NCBI RefSeq assembly: GCF_000003815.2
Contig: NC_049980.1
Location: 18,732,731-18,796,730 of the forward strand
Direction of reading: 5' to 3'
DNA length: 64,000 nt
Origin: Branchiostoma floridae
Taxonomy: Eukaryota; Chordata; Leptocardii; Amphioxiformes; Branchiostomatidae
Within the stretch, counting starts at the first letter, position 1; each line of letters begins with the position of its first letter. A program made the translations under genes and the position numbers. Below, piece after piece: positions 29,425 to 61,800 of the stretch. A model generated the notes under the pieces. That model made no database searches. It saw only the letters and a program-made list of their open reading frames with translations, and was not told the DNA's origin.

Positions 29425-32400
29425 TCAATGATCCCAACCAGTTCGCAATCCTGAGTACATCTGGGCCGTGTACCCTACCCCCGGTACTTCTGACGGCTGA
29501 CGATTCCTCTCAAATGCATGTTGTTGCCAATCCTCAACCCTTCTCATTTGTGCCCACGCCTGAATGACGGAAGTCGCACTGGTGTTGGTTTGGTATGGAG
29601 GAGGGGGAGGGGGGTAGTGCGATTGCTGGAAGGTGCTCACAGGATGCTGATACGGCCTCTGGGCCGACTCCATTCTCACACTGGCCGCTGTTGGAGGTTG
29701 AAACGGTTCGGTCGGTATGCGAGACTGCCTATGCTGCGACATGACCCGCTGGGCACTGCCATGCATCCCCTCGATAGGCATCGTTTGTTGTCTCCCTGTC
29801 ATATTGTAAAATTCTCCCGTAGCAAGACTCTGCACGGCCACAATCTTTATGTCATTATTATTCTCCGGGCTACCGAGTAGACTTGGAGCACTGGCGGTGG
29901 ATATAGGTACTACAGACGAATAGTTCACGTTTGGCCTTCCGGAACTATTCGGTGTTGAAGACGGCGCGTGACCATTAGGCACTTCGTTATTACGGTATCC
30001 GGTGCTTGACAGCTGTAGAGGCTGGATTGTGGAGTCTGTACCGTTGTTAACATTGGGAGCGTTCTCATTTGGTAACATATGACAACCCTGTTGGGAGAAA
30101 CACTGGCTTAACAACTTTGCAGTGGAGAAAACACTGTCCGCTAACTTTATGACAGTTGCGCACGATGCTTCGTTTTTTCCCGCTTGAAGGAACAGCTGCC
30201 TTATGGATGGGGGGCAAGCGCAAATTCTCAGCTTTAGCTGTCCTACCGCCCGCATGAAGTCTGTGAGATTGACGTAAGGAAAGAGACTCACGATGTCCGA
30301 AGCAAGGGCAACCTTCATATGTCCGTAAACTGTCACCACGGGAAACATTTCATGGGTTTTATCTTTAGGAACTCCGTCAACAAAGCCGCAGTGTTCCCAT
30401 CTCAATTGCACCCTCATGTGATTTTCCTTGTAGATGGCATCACTGTCGCGAGTAGCATTCACAGCTTGTCTCACGTGGTCAGTGTTGGTTGACTCTTCGC
30501 GTTGTCCACGCTGCTGCTGAACGGCATTCTCAATCGGCCAAACCGGAGACTTCCTTTTCGAAGAAAATACCCCTTCCATCGGCGATGCCTTACGCTTCCT
30601 ATTAACGGCGCCTGTAAGAATGTCATTCGGTGGACAAGAGGCAACAGAGTTTGGCGGTGATGAAGAGACCGATTCTTCAGCGGCCCGTGAGACAGCCTGG
30701 ACATTTACGTGATGGAGGGGAGGAGTGGCCTTACGCTTCCCAGGGGCGCCTGCAGGAATGCCATTCGGTGGACCAAAGGCAGCTGGATTGGCCGGTGATG
30801 GGAAAGCCGACTTTCCAACGGTCCCTGTGTAAGTCTGGACCTCATCAAGGTGATTGAGTGGGGGAGCGGCCGGACGCAGCTCTCCCACGGTCGCTGGGTG
30901 ACCTGGAGGCATGCTTGGGATTTGCGACGTGACCCGAGCCTGGGATGAATACCGAGGTCTGCTGTCTCCTTGCTGTCTGGTCGTGTTTTCTACTTCTGAA
31001 GAGCTAGAGACATTTTCTTCATACGCACAAGTTGACACACCTGTCTCCGATTTGATGTGTTGCTGAGATTGCTTAGGTGGTATCTTTTCCCCTGTACCCA
31101 CTGCGTGCCTGTTTGTTGCATCGTTGCATGCGTGGTTCGTGTTATGTCCATGCGCTTCGGAATGTAACGCATCTGGAGTTGATTCCTTCGTTGATGCATC
31201 TTCAGGTGCTTCTCTCCTACTGCCTATCTTGATCAAGTCACAGCCAAGCAGGATACCACCAGGTCTGGATTCGTCAGAGAACAAATCAAAACCAAACCTC
31301 CTACACCAAGTAGTATCAATAGGCCCTTTCCAATTGGTCAAACGTTTGAAATCATCAATCGTTACGAAAATACGACGTCTGTGCTCTAAAGTTGCAACAA
31401 CGCTGTCACCTTTTCTGAGTTTCCCATATTTATAAGGCCCCGTTCTTCCTTCTTGGCACTGGTAAGTATACTTTCTCAAGCTCGTCTCGGTAACCGCGGT
31501 GGGAACTGTCACTTTACTAACCGTTAGATCAAGGACGGCTGATGACTCGTCTGCTTCGGGTGTCTCTTTATCCCTATACGTACTCGGCACGCCGGGCATC
31601 TCCTCAGGTTGGTTTGGTGCTTGCTGTGTAACTTCAAGGAAGCGAAGCAAATCCTTGGTTGTTGGATTTCGCTGAGCGATGTCTACAACACCTTTGTGAC
31701 AATACCTGACTTCGTGTCGCGGCGGATCCTCTGCCTTGTCTTGAGTTATGATACCGACCATTGAATTTGTCGCGACCGTTACTTTGTGTGGTTCAGCGGT
31801 AGTACCGCAGGGTTCACCACAGGGTTCCGGAACGGGACAACGCAGGACTGTCACACCAGCCGTGGTCGTTTTCGAACCGTTAGAAGTAGATGGCGCAGCT
31901 GCGGTGTTTACGTGGTTGATTTCAGTAGCAGATGGTAACGTATCCATTTGGCTGTCACTAGCTACTCCGTGTGGCCCTGAAGGCTGACCAGTTTCTGCTG
32001 CAGTAGGGGACTTAGCGCAGTTTGACAGCTTCTCCAGACTCTCTGTCGATCCTTTGATGTCAACACGTTGGCTATAATTCTTTTGGACCGTCTCCAATGA
32101 CGGCGCTGTAGATACTGCATAATTGGCATCAGAAGGTCCAACGTGGCCATCCGAAGTGTGTTTCTCGGAGAGAATTGGTGGCGAAGGGGACACACGTAAC
32201 ATTCGCAGGGATCCACACCTACCACCCATGCGGTTAGACGAATATGTTTCTACACCAATATTGGTGAGACCATGTTTCCTCAAGACCGTTGAACTTGTAT
32301 TTGTATCAGAGGAAGCACTTGCTGTCGCTTTGCTTGCTTGACCAATAGACTTGCCTACTACGCCCTCTTTGGTGTTGCCAACCAACCTGGACCCAGCTAT

Positions 32401-35400
32401 ACGATCAGTTGTTGCTGGCGTGGCAACCACCTTCTTCATCGAAGGTTCTGGGCATTGGTGTGTGCTGGTCAAACGATCATTAGCAACTTCCATTTGTTCT
32501 GTCTGTGTAGCTTGACGCTCTTCCATCGAAGGCTGTGGACATTGGAATTTGGCGGCCAGGTGATCACTCGTATCTTCAGTTTTCACTGCATGTGAGGCAA
32601 CTGGATTCTCCTCCGTCGACGGTTGTGGACATTGAAGTCTGGGCCCGGGGTTGCTCTCTATTCGCAGGAGGAGTTTGGATAAGTCCCGTAAATCCAGCGG
32701 CACCGTGACGACTTTAAAGTCATGGAGATCCATAGATGGTAATGATGACGTAATTATTGTGTGACCGATTGATCTCAACACGGCTGGCGGGGCCAAACCA
32801 ACTGTGATGTTCAGCTCATCGCACATTTCGTTCAAGCAATCGAGAGATACCCTAGGGTAGACTTGCTGAAATTCTTTAAGAGGAATATAGGCTCCACCGC
32901 TTCGGTAGTATATCATCAGTGCATGACTATGATGTACGAGATCGTTGTTGATCATCACCTTGTGCGACATTGCTTCTCTCGCTTGGCTTACTGCCCTTTC
33001 CATGGTGGGCCTCTCCTTCCTGTCAACTTGACAAAAGGCCGTTTCGAGGAATGACAGCAACGCAAACAGTCTCCAGATGCGAGCTTTTAGGACGTTAAGG
33101 CATCGAATCTGCGAGTAGCCAAGCGACTCAAAGCAGGACATAACATCCGCGCCTACCTGATCAACGCTGATGAAGTGGACGCCGAAAATCGGACACAGCT
33201 TCTTTAGCATGCTGGAGGTAAAGCTCGGTACGCCGGTGCTGACGGCGGTCGCTCGGCAATAGAAGGTTGTACCCACTTGTACAACGTCCATGTCCTTCTT
33301 GTTGAGGCGTAATTTCCCGAATTGCGCAGCTTTCGGAGCTCCACTTTCCGCGGGTTTCCGTGTGGCAGCAGGATGTAGGGCTTCTGGTTGCTCGTCTGTT
33401 GACCTGAGGGGACGGTTTGTTGATGGAGGCGTGGTACCTAATGATGGTTTACCATCACTCGGTGTGCTCTTTTCTAAAAGGGTCGTCAATACCGGATATT
33501 CAGGCTCCTTCAAAAGGTTCGTCAGTATCGGATGTTCAGTCTCCACAGCATCCTGTGTTGTAGATCCGCATCTTGTTGTCCCTTCGTCCATATGTTCAGC
33601 AGCACTACTTTCCAAAAGAGGGGGTGATGTCGTAGCCACGAGCTTCTTACTTGGTGTTGGTGTCTTGCAAACATGATCTCGGTTTGGTTGATCGTGATGG
33701 GGACTCTCTAATGTTGAACCAGGCGTAACTTGACATCGTTTTGGTGTAGTGTGATCTTCCCCCTTGACCGTTTTGAATGTATTGTTTGTGTTTTCTTGTG
33801 GTACTTTGAACCTGGCTTTGGTGAACGTTGGCTCTGGAACGCACTCCATTACCAATCCAATACTTTCCTCCTCGGTGTCATCCGTAGACCCCTTGCAGTC
33901 TGTAGGCTCAATTCTGACCTGCTTTAACTGATTATAGGGTGTTTCTGTCGCAATAGCGGTATCCTTGCCCCCGAGGCGGCTGGCGGGGCGATGACTAGTG
34001 ACTGCATCAAGTTCTGTCTTCTCCGCATTTCCAGTCACCTCGACAGAAGCTGTAGTGCTGCTTGTTGTTCCCCTAACATCTCGTCTTCCCGCTGTTGTCC
34101 CCATGCTTACAGTGTCTTTTTCTGGAACTTTTAGGTCGGTCGCGCGACTCAAGTCCTTGTGGAGGCAGTGTGCTGAAGCCATTTTAGAACTTCGTGAAAT
34201 TTCTACTCTACTCCTCGGGGGTGACAGATCTGGTGGGGTCACGCCGTTGTTGTGAACAGCAATGTTTTCATGAATGGTGCAACCCTTCCCCGCCGGTCTA
34301 GCTGATCCACCAACATCTTCGATGTTACCAGCAGGTGGGCGACCAAATAAGTCTAACATTTCCAGCGATGACCACAAGTTTCTGTCTCGCTGAATCCCAG
34401 TTGTTGGTGGTATGTCGCTCTCTGAAACTGTGCTTGAGTTGATACTGGTGTCTTTTTTGTCAGCTTTGGTATGCTGATGAGGCAAGTCCAGTTCACGCCT
34501 GGGCGACTGCATAGAGGAGGCCATTGTCGCACTACTGTTTGTCATTTGGTTCCCACGATCATGCAACTCATCAGTGGTTGACCCCTGTGGTTCCTCGACT
34601 TTTGTTACGCTAATGTTGCCCTTTGGGTCAGGGGATATTTTCTCCAGTATATATTCATCTGCTCTGATGTTCGGCGTCTCCCCTTGGACGGATCGATTTC
34701 CCACCGCACTGTTCTCCTCTGTCTGACAACTGCTGCCAGTTTCATCCACTGAAGCGTCGGGATTCTGGTTGGCGTGTGGGCTGACTGGGCAAACTTCTAC
34801 GGCTGGATCACTGCTTTCTTCGTGCTCCTGCGGTCCGCCACATGTTGTTGGTGTTGTACACAAAGGGCTTTTATGCATGCCGACACTGCATGGGGCCACA
34901 CCAGTTGGTGGACAATGAAGGCGTGGTGAAGTATGCTGAGAAGTGAATTCCTCCGGGCTCTCTTCCTGTTGGTCTGTGAGATCCCTGATATGGCCTTTCT
35001 GAGGTTCTTCATGGGAACATGCATTATTTGAAACCGGATTAGTATCGGCGGGATGGCAGTGTCTGTCATTTTTTGTCTTGCCACTTTCTAATGTCAGCAC
35101 GGAAGAGCACTCACTTTCCGCAGTAACCTGGTCAATGACTACCCATCCCCTGTAATCGGTATAGCAAGCGTTGTTTTTTAGAGACGAAGGGTTAAGGTGG
35201 CTCTTGTTTCTGCTACTCTCCCCCCTGTTTTTGAAACCGTCAGATTGTTCATGAGGTGTGTCAACAGCTGCGTCAACCTTCTTGACATCTGTCCTACACC
35301 TTCTCTCCCCAGACTTGACCTTTTGTTCCACACTAGCGATTCTGGAAGCTTTTAGGGGGTCCGTCGACGGTGAAGCTTCTCCCCTGCCACTGTGGTTGTT

Positions 35401-35856
35401 CGTGGTCAAAAGATCGGTTTTCTGTTTCGTTCGTGTTTCTTTACTGTCTCTGTTTCTGTAACCGTCCCGATCTTCGGCTTGCATAGTTTGACGGCCATCT
35501 TCCTCGCGCGCTTTGTCGACTTTGCTACCGTATCTCTTACAGATTCGGCATAGTTCAGGGTAACACAGTTTCAAATCGTCAAGCAAGACGAGGGGAAAGG
35601 TCCCTTCCCGTGGTTTCCCGTGCGAAATACCCTGAATGTTCTGCAACACTCGAGTTTCTGGCCAGGACGCTATGTGCTGTTGAACTCCGGTATGCCCGCC
35701 GAGCTCCCTGAAGATGTCGAACGGGTCCACGTGGCTCGGCACCCGGGGAAACAGCACATTCACAACTGCGTCCACCGGAACGTACTTCCGCCCATTTCGG
35801 ACGACTTCCGGGAGGAATTTACCCTCAAAGATGACTATTCCTGCCGAGATGGACAT
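29425..35856 (-). CDS. Single-exon 2143-aa protein with multiple Ski/Sno/Dac-like modules
   Basis: One uninterrupted frame, ATG at 35856 and TGA at 29425, with no intron. Globular islands sit in Ser/Thr/Pro-rich linkers: D1 residues ~5-110, D2 ~853-945, D3 ~975-1068, D4 ~1459-1545, D5 ~1825-1915. D3 reads AYIPLKEFQQVYPRVSL then CLNEMCDELNITVG, matching the Ski/Sno/Dac pattern of a hydrophobic 'LP' strand, a helix with xVCDELxI, then a 'L..LG' helix. D2 and D5 end C-LNVLKARIWRLFALL and CATVIKLADSVFSTAKLL, like the C-terminal 'C.LIT..D...L...L' helix of that fold. D1 and D4 are weaker. KRK clusters near residues 1700-1770 look like nuclear localisation signals. Ski/Sno/Dac folds act in chromatin-bound corepressors, so a nuclear role is inferred, not shown. 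D2 and D3 are almost adjacent. The family call rests on pattern only. Confidence 0.6.
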   Translation of the reverse strand: MSISAGIVIFEGKFLPEVVRNGRKYVPVDAVVNVLFPRVPSHVDPFDIFRELGGHTGVQQHIASWPETRVLQNIQGISHGKPREGTFPLVLLDDLKLCYPELCRICKRYGSKVDKAREEDGRQTMQAEDRDGYRNRDSKETRTKQKTDLLTTNNHSGRGEASPSTDPLKASRIASVEQKVKSGERRCRTDVKKVDAAVDTPHEQSDGFKNRGESSRNKSHLNPSSLKNNACYTDYRGWVVIDQVTAESECSSVLTLESGKTKNDRHCHPADTNPVSNNACSHEEPQKGHIRDLTDQQEESPEEFTSQHTSPRLHCPPTGVAPCSVGMHKSPLCTTPTTCGGPQEHEESSDPAVEVCPVSPHANQNPDASVDETGSSCQTEENSAVGNRSVQGETPNIRADEYILEKISPDPKGNISVTKVEEPQGSTTDELHDRGNQMTNSSATMASSMQSPRRELDLPHQHTKADKKDTSINSSTVSESDIPPTTGIQRDRNLWSSLEMLDLFGRPPAGNIEDVGGSARPAGKGCTIHENIAVHNNGVTPPDLSPPRSRVEISRSSKMASAHCLHKDLSRATDLKVPEKDTVSMGTTAGRRDVRGTTSSTTASVEVTGNAEKTELDAVTSHRPASRLGGKDTAIATETPYNQLKQVRIEPTDCKGSTDDTEEESIGLVMECVPEPTFTKARFKVPQENTNNTFKTVKGEDHTTPKRCQVTPGSTLESPHHDQPNRDHVCKTPTPSKKLVATTSPPLLESSAAEHMDEGTTRCGSTTQDAVETEHPILTNLLKEPEYPVLTTLLEKSTPSDGKPSLGTTPPSTNRPLRSTDEQPEALHPAATRKPAESGAPKAAQFGKLRLNKKDMDVVQVGTTFYCRATAVSTGVPSFTSSMLKKLCPIFGVHFISVDQVGADVMSCFESLGYSQIRCLNVLKARIWRLFALLSFLETAFCQVDRKERPTMERAVSQAREAMSHKVMINNDLVHHSHALMIYYRSGGAYIPLKEFQQVYPRVSLDCLNEMCDELNITVGLAPPAVLRSIGHTIITSSLPSMDLHDFKVVTVPLDLRDLSKLLLRIESNPGPRLQCPQPSTEENPVASHAVKTEDTSDHLAAKFQCPQPSMEERQATQTEQMEVANDRLTSTHQCPEPSMKKVVATPATTDRIAGSRLVGNTKEGVVGKSIGQASKATASASSDTNTSSTVLRKHGLTNIGVETYSSNRMGGRCGSLRMLRVSPSPPILSEKHTSDGHVGPSDANYAVSTAPSLETVQKNYSQRVDIKGSTESLEKLSNCAKSPTAAETGQPSGPHGVASDSQMDTLPSATEINHVNTAAAPSTSNGSKTTTAGVTVLRCPVPEPCGEPCGTTAEPHKVTVATNSMVGIITQDKAEDPPRHEVRYCHKGVVDIAQRNPTTKDLLRFLEVTQQAPNQPEEMPGVPSTYRDKETPEADESSAVLDLTVSKVTVPTAVTETSLRKYTYQCQEGRTGPYKYGKLRKGDSVVATLEHRRRIFVTIDDFKRLTNWKGPIDTTWCRRFGFDLFSDESRPGGILLGCDLIKIGSRREAPEDASTKESTPDALHSEAHGHNTNHACNDATNRHAVGTGEKIPPKQSQQHIKSETGVSTCAYEENVSSSSEVENTTRQQGDSRPRYSSQARVTSQIPSMPPGHPATVGELRPAAPPLNHLDEVQTYTGTVGKSAFPSPANPAAFGPPNGIPAGAPGKRKATPPLHHVNVQAVSRAAEESVSSSPPNSVASCPPNDILTGAVNRKRKASPMEGVFSSKRKSPVWPIENAVQQQRGQREESTNTDHVRQAVNATRDSDAIYKENHMRVQLRWEHCGFVDGVPKDKTHEMFPVVTVYGHMKVALASDIVSLFPYVNLTDFMRAVGQLKLRICACPPSIRQLFLQAGKNEASCATVIKLADSVFSTAKLLSQCFSQQGCHMLPNENAPNVNNGTDSTIQPLQLSSTGYRNNEVPNGHAPSSTPNSSGRPNVNYSSVVPISTASAPSLLGSPENNNDIKIVAVQSLATGEFYNMTGRQQTMPIEGMHGSAQRVMSQHRQSRIPTEPFQPPTAASVRMESAQRPYQHPVSTFQQSHYPPPPPPYQTNTSATSVIQAWAQMRRVEDWQQHAFERNRQPSEVPGVGYTAQMYSGLRTGWDH

Positions 35857-42677: not shown

Positions 42678-43593
42678 CATGAAGGAGGGTCTGCATGCTC
42701 TTTTCCGTAAGGCGTAGGCAGGCCTTTTAATTTCCCGTAATTCGTAGGGAACCTTTTTTATTTCACGTAATTCGTAGTGAGGATGGAAAATTTACCGTAA
42801 AGCGTAGCCAATGCATTTCACGTAAAGCGTAATCTAGCCCAAAAATTTTACGTAAAACGTAATCTAGCCTAAAAATTACCCGTAAATCGTAGTCTGGCCT
42901 CCCAAATTTCGTAAGTCGAAGCGTAGTCTACCAGTGAATTTTAGCACTCAAAACAAAGGAAATTGCGTTTCAAAGGATCAAGATTTCAAAATTTTTTCGG
43001 ACCTCCCTTGCGACTCTTCTCACCTTAGGTCATCGACATGGTAAAAATTGTATCGGTGGCCTCGCCCTCGAAAACAAATTTGCTAATAGGAATTAAAGTT
43101 GGCTTAGTCTGCCAGCAAAATTTGCCCATCAAAATGCAGGAAATGTCATTTTAGAGGGTCAAGATTTCAATATTTTCGTGGTCCTCCCTTGCGTCGCCTC
43201 GCGCCTTCGGCGCTCAAAATGCTGAAAATGATGTTGGGGGATGTGACGTGTCAACCTCAAACACCCTTATTGCTTATAGAAATGTCATAAGTTTTATATA
43301 ATAGCCAGAAAAATGCAGTAAATCGCGTTTCAGGCGGTCAGGATTTCACAAATTTTCGTTCAAAATACAGGAAATAGTGTTTCAGAGAGTCAAATTTCAA
43401 AATTTTCCCAGCGGAGCATGCCCCCGCCCCTGTCGAGTGTTGCTAGCCTTCCAGAATTTAGCGTAAACCGTTGCCAGCCTTTCTGAATTTAGCGTAAAAC
43501 GTTGCCGGCCTTCGGAATTTAACGTAAAACGTTGTCGACCGTCCTGAATTTAGCGTAAAGCGTTGCCAGGCCCCCCCATGCAGACTCTCATGA
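42678..43593. mobile_element. Compound repeat element with terminal inverted repeats and subterminal CGTAAAGCGTA arrays
   Basis: The left end CATGAAGGAGGGTCTGCATG is imperfectly inverted at the right end (CATGCAGACTCTCATG). Next to the left end, about 8 diverged ~28-bp units carry CGTAA(A/T)(G/T)CGTA (42704-42925). Next to the right end are four ~30-bp units with GCGTAAA(A/G)CGTTGCC (43447-43573). Between them, four diverged blocks carry GGAAAT...GTTTCA...TCAAGATTTCAAAATTTT (near 42957, 43137, 43315 and 43370). Subterminal repeats of this kind are typical of transposase-binding arrays in DNA transposons. No transposase ORF is seen. Confidence 0.55.
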
Positions 43594-45884
43594 AGAGTGA
43601 TGTACCCAAAAAAAGACACAGCCCCCCCCCCCAAGAAAAACAACACCAGCACGTCCCCGCGGTGACCGCCCTATGTTCCGAAATCCCTATGTTCCGAAAT
43701 CCCTATGTTCCGAAATCTCTATGGAAGTGTTCCAACACACTAGTGTACCGACTGGTGTTGTACAGCGACCTGGGAGTCGACCAAAGCTACATAAGTCCAG
43801 GCTGCGGACACGCGGTCAGCAAAATAGGAAGTTGCGGCCTATATATTATATCACGCTACCTTTTTAAATATTCTCCTTTTTGTGTTATTTGGGATGTCTT
43901 GAAATCTGTTAAAACTATAATAATAACAGAGGACGAACGTTACCTCCATTGCAGATTTTAGCCAAAAGAATTCTATAAGTGCAATCGTGCAAAGAGGTCA
44001 CCTGCTTTTTGTGTGATGAAATCAATTCTTTCCCACAATACCTTGTCTTTCCAACAATATCTCACCTTCCAACAATTATCTCACCAACATATGGAAAATA
44101 TAATTCAAGTTGTACGAAACAAATCATACTCAAGGTGAAATGTAAAAAAAAAACAGGGTATACCGTATACATGATGTTGGTGTATTTGCCATACGTTGTA
44201 CCTGATGCAATATCATTAGCCCCCAAAGCAGGCTGTTTTTTTTGGTCTCATATTTACACATTTGTTGCCCTTTTTTTTTTTTGCAAAAGTGTCTTCAATA
44301 TTAGCCTGTGTTTACACAAGCTCTCTCGCCGGCTGGGCTTAATGACCCCCCCCCCTCCGCACGTGACTTTTGCATCTCATTAGCACCATATATGGAGGCC
44401 CACTGCCGACAATATCCGCGAGGTTTAGACGGACCTGACATCAAGCTCCTACGGGTGGCGGCAATTATAGGGCCGGCCGCTAGGGGCTTGATTTTAGTCA
44501 GGCTATCTTCAATATAAGCCAAAACAAAGGGCCTCAGAGAGCTATGCAATCATTGTGCAATAAACTTTGACTTGACATTTGACTTTCATCAGGTGTACCG
44601 TGTACGTGTACATTGCAAACAAACATTGCAACAACACGCTCTCCCAACAGCTACAATGTATATTATAATGGGCAGCAAACAAAACACAAACAAGTACAGC
44701 CAATTGCAATATTTTAGCCAATTTTACTCAAATGACCATCTGTACAATTGTGATCTTTATCTTCTACATAATAAACACAAGTTTGGACATGTCCATGCTA
44801 ATGTTGTTAGCAATGATTTGCATGAAATAAATATTATATACCAATACTGCATTGGTAAATATAAACTGGAATCTACGTAACTGTGACCAAACAAAAAAGG
44901 AAAACCACATCTTATTACATGTATCACTGAAATTTGATCAACTGTAAAGGAATTCAAAATTTATGCAGCATTGTTTTAACATGCAAATTATGACCATTGC
45001 TTGAGCAACTGCTACAATATGCAAATGTTGACAACAGAAAGAACATTTGTAAATCTGTCTTTGCAGGGAAAATCACAAATATTTGTACTCAGCAATGCAG
45101 TGAGATAGCTTATACGTAACATCTGCAATCCTTAACACTGACAGATATGGTTCAAATCTTCTATCATATATTTCAAACAGAGCGGTGCTGTTGCAGTGTA
45201 AGGGCAGTCAGACAAGCATTTTTCATTGCTCCTTAGATTTCCTTTCAGTTAGAGAAAGGCAATTATGTTGTACACAGGATCATCAAAGAAAGCTCCAGCC
45301 TTCAGAAATTGCAAAATCAGATGTCTCATTTGCATGTATTTTAATAATCTAAAGCAATAAAAATCTATTCCTACCAATTACACCTCATGAGCACATGGTA
45401 AATACATTCACGGTGACTTCCTAGATCCTCTTTACAGTGTATGTACACCATCTCAAGATAAGCTGATTTTTCTTATATCCCCTTTATTTGTTTCCTCGTC
45501 AGGCCACTGACTGTTTAAGAATAAAAGCGAATAATAGCAAAAACAGATTTTCATGTCACGAAGGTACAACTTTCGGGTTGTAGGAAGAAAAGCAATGACA
45601 AACATCAACTTGTATGGAATAAGGCAGTCCTACAAACACAAACTGTCCACAAACTTTTTGCTTTGTAAACATCCTGGATTTTGATTTGACCATGATGACT
45701 TTGGTTATGGCTTTATATCCTGGCTTGTAACAATCACCAATTGCAAGGAAACTATCATGTATAAAAGGCTTTAGTATACAATTTTCCTTCACCTCTGAAT
45801 TCTTAAAAGCGTTTGTCAAACTAAGCAATATCTTTCCATATAATCCTTCTTGTAGTATGCAGACCAAGGTATTAAAAAAGGTAG
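43594..45884. other. Downstream region of the DENND4 gene
   Basis: No gene recognised. A 16-bp unit (TATGTTCCGAAATCCC) is repeated three times at about 43673-43723. The 3' UTR of the DENND4 transcript probably reaches into the right part: AATAAA on the minus strand lies at about 45483-45488, some 1.35 kb beyond the stop codon. AT-rich elsewhere. Confidence 0.4.
43673..43723. repeat. Short tandem repeat, 16-bp unit, three copies
   Basis: TATGTTCCGAAATCCC occurs three times in tandem, the last with one change (ATCTC). No function inferred. Confidence 0.85.
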
Positions 45885-55800: not shown

Positions 55801-58800
55801 TAGAGGTCTAAGTCCACAAACTCGGCAGAATGGAACAGTCCTGAACAGCAAGAGTTTATGTTATGTTATGTTAAGCACCCACATCCCCACTCACCGGCTT
55901 CCTCCTCTCAAGTCTGTTACCACTACATTAAGGAATGGGACAAGGAGAGACTTGCAATGCTGGCACCTGAAACAAAACAAAGAAAAAATTAAGACTATCA
56001 TAAACATTTTCCTTTATATCCTAAACAATTAAACAAGCACTCTCACAGTTCCAGTAACACAGGGATTGTGGGTAAACTCTGAGAAGTTAGCAAGCATCCA
56101 CATTGCAAACACATCAAGACAAAGAGCTGTTTACAAGTGAGGGACATCAGGAAATATATTCTCTACATCAGATGTGCATGCACAAATTGAAAGACTTAGA
56201 GCATGTGCATGCATATACGGTATGTATGTACAAAATGATCATGTATACCAAAATTAAAATCGAAGTCATAGGAATTTGCATTTTGCATGACACTGTAAGA
56301 CAGCAGTTTATGAAAAAATTATGGTGGCTGAAAAACAAAGTTATATTACAAGTGGGCCGGCCCCTGCTGTAATGCTTGCACAGGTGTGGGCCATAGTCGG
56401 AGATAGACACTAGAAAACTACCTATAAACCAAAAGTTGTGGGAAGGATCTTAACTCTAGCCTTCTCTAGTAGAACTGCCAAAGCGAATAACCAATACAAA
56501 TTTGTGTAGCTAAGTGGGTACCTTAGCCAGATGAAGTTAACTATACCGACTCTATGTTAAGGTGTAACTTAACTATACCCACTCTGTGTTACGGTGTAAG
56601 TTAACTATAACCACTCTGTGTTAAGGTGTAAGTTAACTATACCCACTCTTTTTTTTTTTTTTTTTTTTTTACTCAATGGTCACCACGTAACAAGGCCTGA
56701 AGGCCACTCAAGGTTACGGGTTACATGATTGGAACTGTAACAGCAACTCTTCGCCCTAGGTCAGAAACATCATGATTGAGACCAGCCCAATTGCTCACTA
56801 TGAGTGAGGACTATCTGACCCAATAGGCGAAGCAGGGGTTACGAGGGCTGCTCGGGAGATTCCCTACCCCTATTTTGGCCGGAATGGTTTGATCCGCTCG
56901 GAAGGATGTTCGCACATGTGGCGACATTTGTCGATTCTTTAACGTGCATAGGGTATGGCTCTCCCCATACACGGGACCTCCATTTAACGTCCTATCCGAG
57001 GGACGACTCATTTTTCACTTGAGTAAAGTGAGGAAAGTCGTGTAAAGTGCCTTTCCCAAGGGCACAAGACCGGCAACACGGCAAGCGGATTCGAACCGGC
57101 GACCTCTCGGTCACGGGCCGAGTACACTACCACTGTGCTACGCGGCCCCACTCTGTGTTAAGGTGTAAGCTAACTATACCCACTCTGTGTTAAGGTGTAA
57201 GTTAACTATACCCACTCTGTGTTAAGGTGTAAGTTAACTATAACCACTCTGTGTTATGTTGTAAGTTAACTATACCCACTCTGTGTTAAGGTGTAAGCTA
57301 ACTATACCCACTCTGTGTTAGGGTGTAGGTTAACTATACCCACTCTGTGTTAGGGTGTAAGTGAACTATACCCACTCTGTGTTAGGGTGTAAGTGAACTA
57401 TACCCACTCTGTGTTAAGGTGTAAGTGAACTGTACCCACTCTGTGTTAAGGTGTAAGTTAACTATACCCACTCTGTGTTAAGGTGTAAGTTAACTATACC
57501 CACTCTGTGTTCAGGTGTAAGTGAACTATACCCACTCTGTGTTAAGGTGTAAGTGAACTATACCCACTCTGTGTTAAGGTTGGAATCATCAGGTGTCCAT
57601 CCTGCCATGATCTCCTCATCGTACAGCAGGGTGTTACAGCTGTAGCACCTCATACAGCTGCTCATGCGCACCTCCATGGCGTAGTTATGGAATATACTCT
57701 GGGTGCTGGCATATCTGGAGGACCCGTGGCTGTCAAGGGAGTCCCTTCGGTTCAGCATGCCTGGCATGGGAAGGCTCCCTGTATGGAGGTGAGATGGGCA
57801 TAATGAACACACTGGTCAGTAGTCATTTGATAGAATAATCGTCAGAGTTCTATACATAATACCTAAAGTCTTGTTAATTTTAACTTCTATTTACCTTTGC
57901 CAGAATGGCTAAGGTTATGTTTTAGGCTTGTGAGTCTGTCTGTCTGTGTGTGTGTTAACAGCATAACTCAAGAAGCCTTGGATGGATCCCGATAATATTT
58001 GGTACGTGGATAGGGGTCGGGAAAACGAAGGTCAAGTTCGATAATGGGCCCCCTAGCGGCTTGCTAAGGTACTGCAGCAGAACCTCAATTTTTGATATCT
58101 TGTGTTCTGGACATGCTGTGGTTATGATTTTTGAGTGGTAGATAGCCCTTGGGGCAGAGAGTAAGTACTATTATTTTGGACCCCCTAGCGGCTTGTTTGG
58201 AACTGCAGTCGCCGATTTCCTTTCAAACTTTGGACGAGAATAACTCGAGAACGTGTTGATGGATCGTCACGATTTTTGGTATGTAGATAGCCCAAGTAAC
58301 ACTGTACATTATGGAATACTAATTATGCAAATCAGCAACTAATTTTCATAATTAATGAGGAAAGTTTATAAATCCGCTGCATTTCATGATAGGACTTTCA
58401 AACTTGTCACATATATAGATGAGAAATAGAGAAAAATCAATCCATATTAATTATGCAAATAGAGACCTCATTTGCATAATTAATGAGAAAATATAAACGT
58501 GTTGACGGATCGTCATGATTTTTGGTATGTAGATAGCCACATGGAAGACTTACATGATGGAATTCTAATTATGCAAATCGACAGCTAATTTGCATAATTA
58601 ATGAGGAAAGTTTGTAAATCCACTGCATTCCTTTATAGGACTTTCAAACTTGTCACATTTGTAGCTGAGAAAGAAAGAAATATCTATACATATTAATTAT
58701 GCAGATGATGATCTCATTTGCATAATTAATGGCAAAATATGAACATGTTGACGGATCGCCTTTTTTTTGGTATGTAGATATCCTAAGTAAAAACTTACAT

Positions 58801-61800
58801 AATGAGATACTAATTATATAAATTAACAATTTGCATAATTAATGCGGAAAGTTGATAAATCCACTGCATTTCGTGATAGGACTTTCAAACTTGACACATA
58901 TGGAACTGAGAAAGATGGCAGAGACTAAGAGGTGTATGTGTGGATCCGGTTATGTCTTTTCTTGAACTGCAGGAGCCGGTTTAGTTTCCTACTTTGAAAG
59001 AGAATAAGTCAAGAAGGGATGAAAGGATCATCATGATTTTTGGTATGCTGATAGTGATAGCTTAAGTGATGCTTGATACAATTTAATATCATTATGTAAA
59101 TAGGGATCTAATTTGTATAAGCAATGGCGAAATGTTATGAGCCAACTCCTGGCATATAAAATAAAATGTAATGAGTAACACATCTATGTCTACAGACATC
59201 ATTCTACATAACAAACCTGGTTTATTTGGCAAAGGTATGTGTTCGTGGAAATCTAGTTGAAAAATACTGAAGCCAGCGTTCCTGCCCTACAACTGCCTAA
59301 GGGGAAGGGGTTTCATCCCAGGGTCTGCCCCAGCACAGACCTGTTGTAAGGACTTCATTGATCATTTTGGATGGTGACGTAAAGCCAGCAATCGCGCAAC
59401 ACACTTATCGCAAAGTTCGAATGACCCTGTATGCTGGACTAACAAAGTGAGCTGTAGTGAAGCAGCACCAGCTACTTCCATAAGCTTCATACTTTACCTT
59501 TGTTGATAAAATGTGATAAAATAAGAGGCTTTGTAACTCAAAAACTTGCTATACAAGATGTAAATATGAGCACATGGGGCAAATAAAATCAACTGTCTTC
59601 AACTTGAGTTAACAGTAAAAAATCTTGCACAGCAGAGCAGCCAGTACATCAGTATGTTTTGTAAGATTATGAGACACTGTTATAGGCAATAATTAGATGG
59701 ACTGACCTGACATCATATCAGGAGGTGTTCCGACCAGATGTGTCTCACTCCTGCTCAAGTAGTCCAGGTTCCTGGAGCTCCTCTTGGGAGTTCTCTCTCC
59801 TTCCGAGTCATCCCCGTCGAAGGTCACCAGGCTGTCCAGTTCTGGGGCCCTCAGCATGTTGTCCGACCTGCTCGTCAGCGAGCTGCCCATGAATTTACTG
59901 GCCATGGCACTGGCCGCCGCTTTGAACACGTCCAGTTTGGAACTGGAGCCCGACCCCTGGCGGCTGTGGACTGGCGTGAGGGAGGGGGAGGCCCTGTCCT
60001 TCAAGCCGGTCACCTCGCTCATGGAGCGAGGCATGCTGGGGGAAGATGTAGGAGAGGTGCCCCTTCCAGGACTGAACATGCTGGCAGCAGCAGATTTCAG
60101 GAAGCTGAAGCTGGAGCCAGAACCTTGTCTATTGTGAGAAGGTGCTCTTGAGGGGAGGGAGGCAGCCACTGCTACAACTAGTCCTGATTCATCTGGGCTC
60201 TCCGACAACTTACTACTCAACGGACTGCGGGCAGAGCCAGCCGAGCTGAGCTTAGCGTGACAGCTGGGAGACTTGTGCATGTGTCGGACAACTTCTCGAG
60301 GAGGACTAGTGTTAGCAGATGTGGGCGAAGTACCTGTGCTGTCAAAGTTCTGAAACAGTTTTGGCATGTCCGACTCTAATGCCAGACTTAGGGACCTGTC
60401 AGTCTTACCTTTCGGTTCGCTTGGCACTGACTTTGCTATTTTCTCCTGTTTGGAGTCCATATCATCATCCAATGGCAGTAAAGGATGGAAGGAGGCCTCG
60501 GTGAGGCTGGGCCGTCTTATCCTAGGCCTTCCAATGCTATTGCACTTGGCTTCAGATTCGTCTTTTGCGTCATCTTTTGTTTCATCAGTCTCTTCTTTAT
60601 CCAGGTCTTCATTTAAAAATGGGTCCCACTGATTTTCCCATGAGTCTTTCCTGACCAACTCTTTCTTCTTCTTTTCATCCTCCTCTGACTGCTTCCTTGA
60701 CATCACACTGTCTCCAGAGCTCCTTTTCAACCTGGTGGCTGCCCCTGCAGCCTTTCTGTGTTTCATGACAGAGGCATCACTACTGGAGCGGGAGCGGCTC
60801 CCGTCCGAGAACCATCCCACGCTGGCCGGACGTGAGGCACCTTTGATCCTCTGTCGAGCCTGGTTGACACTGTCGTCTCGACTCAACCCAGACAGCAGTT
60901 TGGCGTCACCTTTGAATAGGTCAATCTTCAACTCTCCGTCCATCTCGCTGTCATGACTCCCCTGTCGGGACAGCACCTCCGTGAGGGTGACATTGCTGTC
61001 CCCGCTCGGGTACCGCGGCCGTTCCACTCCGCTGCCGCCACTGCCTCCAGCTGCACGCTTCATCTTGGAGGGGTCTCCCGCGCTCTTGTGTCTCTTCCTG
61101 GTGGAGCGTGCAGGTCTGAAGGCGGCAGAGAGGCTGTACGAGCGCTCGTGGAAGACAGGCTCCTCCACAGAGGTCTGACTGGTGATGAGAAGTCCTGCCG
61201 CACTACCTGTGAGGAATGACAAATACTTCTGTCCATACTACAGAGATACAGTACAAAAACATAGTGTACTACTGTATGGTACAATGCTGTAATACATATA
61301 CATGAAATGCACATACAAAATGTATTTTCGGCACACATGTCCATAGGATAATGATGCATTCCTTGCACCAAATGATGAATATCTGATATGCTTATTTATA
61401 TCTGCCTTTGAGAATAGTTCCAGTGCAGCTCTCAAAAGTGCAACAACTTTTGATAATCATTCAAGGACAAAACAAGGAGAGCACAGCACAAAAACACAAG
61501 CAGGCACCAGGAAGCCTCACACAACATGCATAGCTACTGACATTCAATAGCAGAGCTATGGGGACACAGCCCCTAAACCTACAGCCAAGCTGCTCAAGCT
61601 GTAATACTGGTGAGAACTAACAAATAACATACACAAAAGTGCAAACAGTAAAGGCAGCAAAGATGTTGGTGAAGTTAGTAATGTTGTAATAGCTTGAGCT
61701 TGATGGGGGGAAGATTTGAAGAGGACAAAGTCATGCAGAGAGACTGCGCTGTATCCTTTCTTGTCTCCTTTTTTTGTCCTTTCTAATAAAAATGACTGGC

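Follow-up and report, generated by a model that had tools for sequence, protein, structure and literature searches.

The window analysed here, which is the whole stretch of 64,000 nucleotides from Branchiostoma floridae, carries on its minus strand a series of coding-like exons of a DENND4-like gene. One of these exons is 211 nt long (57568..57778, minus strand); its predicted borders are an acceptor at CCATACAG/GGAGCC and a donor at CACAGA/GTGGGT (the slash marks the splice border). When read from 57778 to 57568, its final codons are GAT GAT TCC AAC CTT AAC ACA GA, the encoded end is SNLNT-GA, and the exon terminates as AACACAGA/GTGGGT. The following coding exon (55895..55966, minus strand) has the putative acceptor TTTGTTTCAG/GTGCC and starts with G TGC CAG CAT TGC at 55966. 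The intron between the two exons is 1601 nt long, and joining them gives the frame NT-E-CQHCK. The 5' splice site GTGGGT at 57562..57567 (minus strand) was taken as the genuine one, since it is the first of a long row of such sites and keeps the frame into the next exon.

More coding-like exons follow downstream on the minus strand, to a stop near 46.8 kb, which would agree with the C-terminal part of DENND4. The name of the gene comes from the peptide of the two joined exons, which we take to resemble a conserved stretch of the human DENND4 proteins. Searches with this peptide in Pfam and PDB gave nothing significant, and none of the 9 matches listed in a DENN-domain search lay at the array locus. 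Upstream of the window, as far as a window coordinate of about 79 kb, much of the DNA consists of N. Between the exon that borders the array and an exon near 59.7 kb, a tandem repeat with a unit of 246 bp occupies 58250-58915 in 2.7 copies.

A minisatellite adjoins the end of the 211-nt exon at 57568/57567. TRF reports it on the minus strand as two blocks with a 32-bp period: a proximal block at 57147-57580 with 13.6 copies and 95% matches, and a distal block at 56534-56649 with 3.6 copies and 90% matches. The consensus of the unit is ACCTTAACACAGA/GTGGGTATAGTTAACTTAC, comprising 13 exonic and 19 intronic bases, with the donor among the latter; the exonic portion is the same as the final 13 bases of the exon. 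An earlier note on this DNA had correctly placed the exon end, the GT and the start of the intron within one unit, but had given the exonic share as 11 bases. The 14th base back from the exon end no longer matches the unit. Because the 13-mer ACCTTAACACAGA occurs 10 times on the minus strand of the window and the 14-mer only once, the match between exon end and unit is beyond chance, and a chance resemblance was ruled out.

A GT is found in the donor position at 18 sites today, 14 of them before and 4 after an inserted SINE. The exact AGA/GTGGGT is present at 14 of the 18, the genuine donor included; the remaining four read GTGGTT (two), GTGGGG and GTCGGT. Beyond the genuine donor, the proximal array (57147..57561, minus strand) holds 13 further donor-like sites at 32-bp spacing, the last of which is split by the SINE, and the four sites of the distal array lie within its 3.6 units (56534..56649, minus strand). 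Each unit is thus a potential decoy donor, as had been proposed from the first reading of the sequence.

In that reading, the minisatellite was a single array at 56536..57581 with about 18 donors. The 32-bp minisatellite and its 18 GT sites stand, but the span is interrupted at about 56650-57146 by a tRNA-derived SINE that ends in a poly-A tail and is inserted within one repeat unit (56650..57146, minus strand). The element is approximately 0.5 kb in length, its start is tRNA-like (Rfam tRNA at 57076-57147, 36.5 bits), and it is flanked by AGAGTGGG on both sides. The left copy (57147..57154, minus strand) and the right copy (56642..56649, minus strand) are read as a target-site duplication. 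A relative at L032:7324-7799 is 95.3% identical, with an alignment that spans all 485 bases compared; partial relatives of this family of poly-A tRNA-derived SINEs were also seen in L019, L022 and L025. The insertion probably doubled one donor-position site, which would give about 17 sites beforehand and 18 now.

When the genome assembly (513,431,437 bases in 431 contigs) was searched with the array, only the array locus itself was matched among the best-scoring candidates, and a single copy of it was found. The array therefore probably arose in place; an introner-like element, for which dispersed copies are required, was rejected on the same result. The published chromosome assembly of B. floridae is described as a Sanger shotgun assembly with merged haplotypes (PMC7269912), so the copy number may be wrong. 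It is nevertheless very improbable that the array or its length is an assembly error: the units differ from one another, with 23 differences from the consensus across 16 full units, a SINE with its flanking duplication lies within the array, and the same arrangement is present at other loci. The donor 9-mer (9 of the 32 columns) contains 3 of the 23 differences (p = 0.16). The donor 9-mers thus show no clear sign of constraint or of decay, which is neutral evidence, and selection on the donors of the array was set aside.

Tandem duplications of an exon-intron border are known in amphioxus as mirages and have been described in the globin genes BflGb6 and BflGb9 (PMC3087553). According to the account of earlier work in that paper, the units of the Adh3 mirage measure 10-72 bp and show somatic instability; the Adh3 data and RT-PCR on the globins suggest that splicing is undisturbed, and repeats of this type were proposed to be able to create introns (PMC3087553). 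PGBD5 and troponin C are also described as carrying mirages, and splicing is reported to be undisturbed in the genes studied (PMC3902484). Compared by description with these published cases, the DENND4-like array shares tandem border repeats with repeated splice signals: it is a head-to-tail minisatellite (32 bp, 13.6 + 3.6 copies), and its unit lies across the exon-intron border with the splice signal, 13 exonic bases being joined to 19 intronic ones. Its unit length falls inside the range cited for Adh3. It differs from the published mirages in its gene, in its donor AGA/GTGGGT and in having about 17 copies before the SINE split them. The arrangement is not new: the same layout has already been described under the name of mirage (PMC3087553, PMC3902484), and the DENND4-like locus adds one case to an already known oddity. 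Among the papers listed in literature searches for such arrays, neither a genome-wide survey nor a DENND4 case was seen.

The array is very probably an amphioxus mirage, a near-neutral minisatellite that arose by tandem duplication of the end of an exon together with its 5' splice site. A short stretch across the 3' end of the exon and the splice site would have been duplicated in tandem to give the minisatellite, slippage or unequal exchange would then have expanded the array, and the SINE would later have split it. Splicing would normally take place at the exon-proximal donor, and the downstream copies would leave as ordinary intron. The proximal donor would be preferred because it is made first and is the one donor that borders on the whole exon, together with the exon's acceptor and exonic signals. 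Occasional use of a later donor would yield a transcript with an early stop, which is expected to be degraded. An array close to neutral is the most likely state of affairs.

The consequence of choosing a later donor can be read directly. Continuing from the exon in its own frame gives NT-E-W-V-stop, and since the first added unit already contains E-W-V-stop, any later donor would bring the stop. That a shift downstream adds a stop codon had been claimed before and is borne out; the unit length of 32, indivisible by 3 and offered as part of the reason, is irrelevant to the truncation, because the stop is already present in that first unit. The predicted U1 duplex at the genuine donor (57562..57567) is -9.1 kcal/mol. 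Of the 13 other proximal sites, 11 have the same predicted value and the remaining two have -4.9 and -8.3, so the first donor is unmarked by sequence alone.

Such a row of donor-like sites might act as a U1-rich intronic enhancer, gathering U1 snRNP and thereby aiding the first donor or blocking early polyadenylation. The pairing was computed for the 13 proximal sites beyond the genuine donor, and its equal strength at 11 of them would suit this role. The genuine donor, however, is not especially weak, its -9.1 lying within the range of -6.1 to -13.5 kcal/mol for 11 donors predicted for the DENND4-like gene in the window, and no constraint is seen on the donors; an enhancer of this kind is accordingly considered unlikely.

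Donor arrays elsewhere in the genome were sought across the 513-Mb assembly as three AGGTRAGT words spaced 14-44 bp apart. This search did not target arrays of the DENND4-like type, because the DENND4 donor is weaker than AGGTRAGT. Three tandem AGGTRAGT gave 473 matches in the genome. With the reversed word as control there were 116, with a second control word 155, and with that second word reversed 268. The single words occur 38,147 times (AGGTRAGT) and 39,566 times (reversed), counts that were taken for this word pair. Over the highest control (268), the excess of donor arrays is only 1.8-fold, and some long arrays account for a large part of the matches. Arrays were also considered individually, being counted by hand in three contigs (C1-C3) among the matches listed: the donor word, followed to 0.4 Mb short of the end of C3, formed at least 20, including 2 simple repeats of GAGT type, the reversed word 7, all largely 4-bp repeats, and the second control word 6, one of which is the dynein array itself. 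The window and L007-L032, which together make 27 sequences with 289,919 non-N bases, contained 38 minisatellites, none with AGGTRAGT, the sample being too small for such arrays.

The upstream side was read for all 20 listed donor arrays of C1-C3. Four of these (L033-L036) had been chosen partly for their coding-looking units, and the other 16 are the remainder. An exon end at the first donor is backed by homology in 7 of the 20 arrays and weakly, by a BACK match, in 1; another 3 have an open frame only, and 9 gave no exon evidence. Four of the homology-backed cases (L037, L038, L046, L050) come from the 16 loci that were not picked. Among the chosen loci, L033 matches CHD1 (PDB, 6.4e-19, query residues 1-50 of 50), and L034 shows a weak BACK match below the family cut-off (Pfam, 0.0081, residues 2-26 of 49). 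L035 matches a Na/Ca exchanger (Na_Ca_ex; Pfam, 2.1e-7, residues 2-32 of 41); because this match ends at residue 32 of 41, the last part of the exon rests on the open frame. L036 (C1:408320-408720, minus strand) matches TALPID3 (Pfam, 4e-8, residues 11-82 of 84).

Among the remainder, L037 (C1:222126-222273) matches dynein (PDB, 2.5e-7, residues 3-28 of 28) and L038 (C1:229971-230436) dynein AAA_7 (Pfam, 3.4e-6, residues 15-50 of 50). L046 matches SH3-containing GRB2-like protein 3, an endophilin (PDB, 7.5e-6, residues 1-33 of 34), and L050 matches condensin complex subunit 3 (PDB, 8.3e-10, residues 2-48 of 49). Long open frames up to the donor, with no family match, make L040, L043 and L052 putatively coding; reading of the upstream side gave no exon evidence in L039, L041, L042, L044, L045, L047, L048, L049 and L051. 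The Pfam queries, one from each of the 20 sister loci except L033, L045 and L049 (17 in all), gave three matches over the family cut-off (Na_Ca_ex, TALPID3 and AAA_7) and four under it, of which BACK and BAR were taken as real but weak and two as chance. The other ten queries had no Pfam match, including those from L037 and L050, which are both supported by PDB. Six sister loci were searched against PDB, with matches for four and nothing for L038 and L035. A distance of 8 kb separates the donor arrays of L037 and L038, each of which begins at a dynein heavy chain-like exon, and the pair may represent one dynein gene with two mirages.

These loci also bear on the direction in which the DENND4-like repeat was copied. 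An array born within the intron might have grown into the exon and overwritten its end, and the array alone cannot reveal the direction of copying. The exonic portion of the unit, however, encodes N-L-N-T, which we take to be conserved in DENND4, and in the CHD1 and dynein sister arrays the exonic part of the unit has homology to its last residue. An intronic origin is thus regarded as highly improbable. The exonic stretch held in common with the second unit varies among the sister arrays; it is shortest in L043, with a few bases, and longest in L037, with at least 25.

Eleven arrays were taken as exonic, namely the seven backed by homology together with L034, L040, L043 and L052. Use of the second donor would lead to a stop in six of them (L034, L035, L038, L043, L046, L050), to an open frameshift in one (L036) and to an in-frame addition in four (L033, L037, L040, L052); in L037, the addition would be GESHLWVENLNT. 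Since these outcomes vary over the 11 arrays, the truncating stop at the DENND4-like locus is not a common feature, and the variation, as predicted from sequence, speaks against a designed switch. The earlier note had suggested, as one possibility, a built-in noise or regulatory switch. In a regulatory switch, the choice of donor would be tuned and a share of the transcripts would end early and be degraded, setting the level of the gene. Such a device would fit with a row in which all later donors end in E-W-V-stop and the 9-mer of the genuine donor recurs at 13 further sites; moreover, coding-like exons lie further downstream, and decay would therefore be expected. No common design is seen over the sister arrays, however, in either unit length modulo 3 or stop content; the donor 9-mers are without measurable constraint, and a SINE sits inside the array. 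The suggestion of a switch is therefore unsupported, and we regard it as distinctly unlikely.

Scaled up linearly from about 104 Mb to the 513 Mb of the assembly, the 7 homology-backed cases would become roughly 34 and the 11 arrays taken as exonic roughly 54, a rough estimate for strong donors at short spacing only. It is possible, although we would put it at somewhat less than an even chance, that in this genome the end of an exon, together with the 5' splice site, is a hot spot at which minisatellites tend to be born, and that mirages form a genome-wide class. The evidence for hot spots is suggestive, and the 268 matches of the highest control weaken it. In L013-L032 (180,750 non-N of 200,000 bases), 6.4% of the sequence belongs to arrays that have a period of 10-200 and two copies or more, so that a certain number of borders should fall inside arrays even if no special mechanism is at work. 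Many AGGTRAGT words are true donors, and random seeding of arrays on this word would therefore often place them at exons; that AGGTRAGT arrays outnumber those of the reversed word points to more than random seeding, but over the highest control the excess is only 1.8-fold.

If exon ends are indeed such hot spots, dozens of genes with strong donors would carry mirages by extrapolation, and more with weaker ones. Mirages would then constitute a natural experiment on how the spliceosome chooses the first among many identical donors, as well as a standing source of new introns and in-frame peptide additions. Where near-identical donors stand in rows at exon ends, as in CHD1, dynein and condensin, it becomes possible to test in living animals how the first donor is chosen; donor arrays at exon ends also bear on the origin of introns from tandem duplications.

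Repeated donor sequences inside an intron are also a property of recursive splice sites and zero-length exons, and in this the DENND4-like array resembles them. Recursive sites, however, have an AG/GT junction, whereas the DENND4-like unit has no AG joined to GT but CAG-A-GT; a search of the DENND4-like intron for AGGTRAGT and GGTRAG found neither, and recursive splicing or a zero-length exon was rejected. The array of L036 is built of 23-bp units with TTTTCTTCTCACACTCAG/GTGAG, which resembles an acceptor joined directly to a donor and may be compared with a zero-length exon. In human segmental duplications, internal tandem repeats at exon-intron borders have been described and linked to novel introns (PMC2812944). 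They share with the DENND4-like array a repeat of minisatellite type at an exon-intron border; in that description they concern primate paralogues and changed transcripts, whereas the present array is described at the level of the DNA sequence.

Two further features of the window were observed. A single open frame of 2143 codons extends over 29425-35856 on the minus strand, with no Pfam match at E up to 0.1. At 42701-43723, four short tandem arrays are clustered, with unit lengths of 30, 30, 31 and 16 bp.
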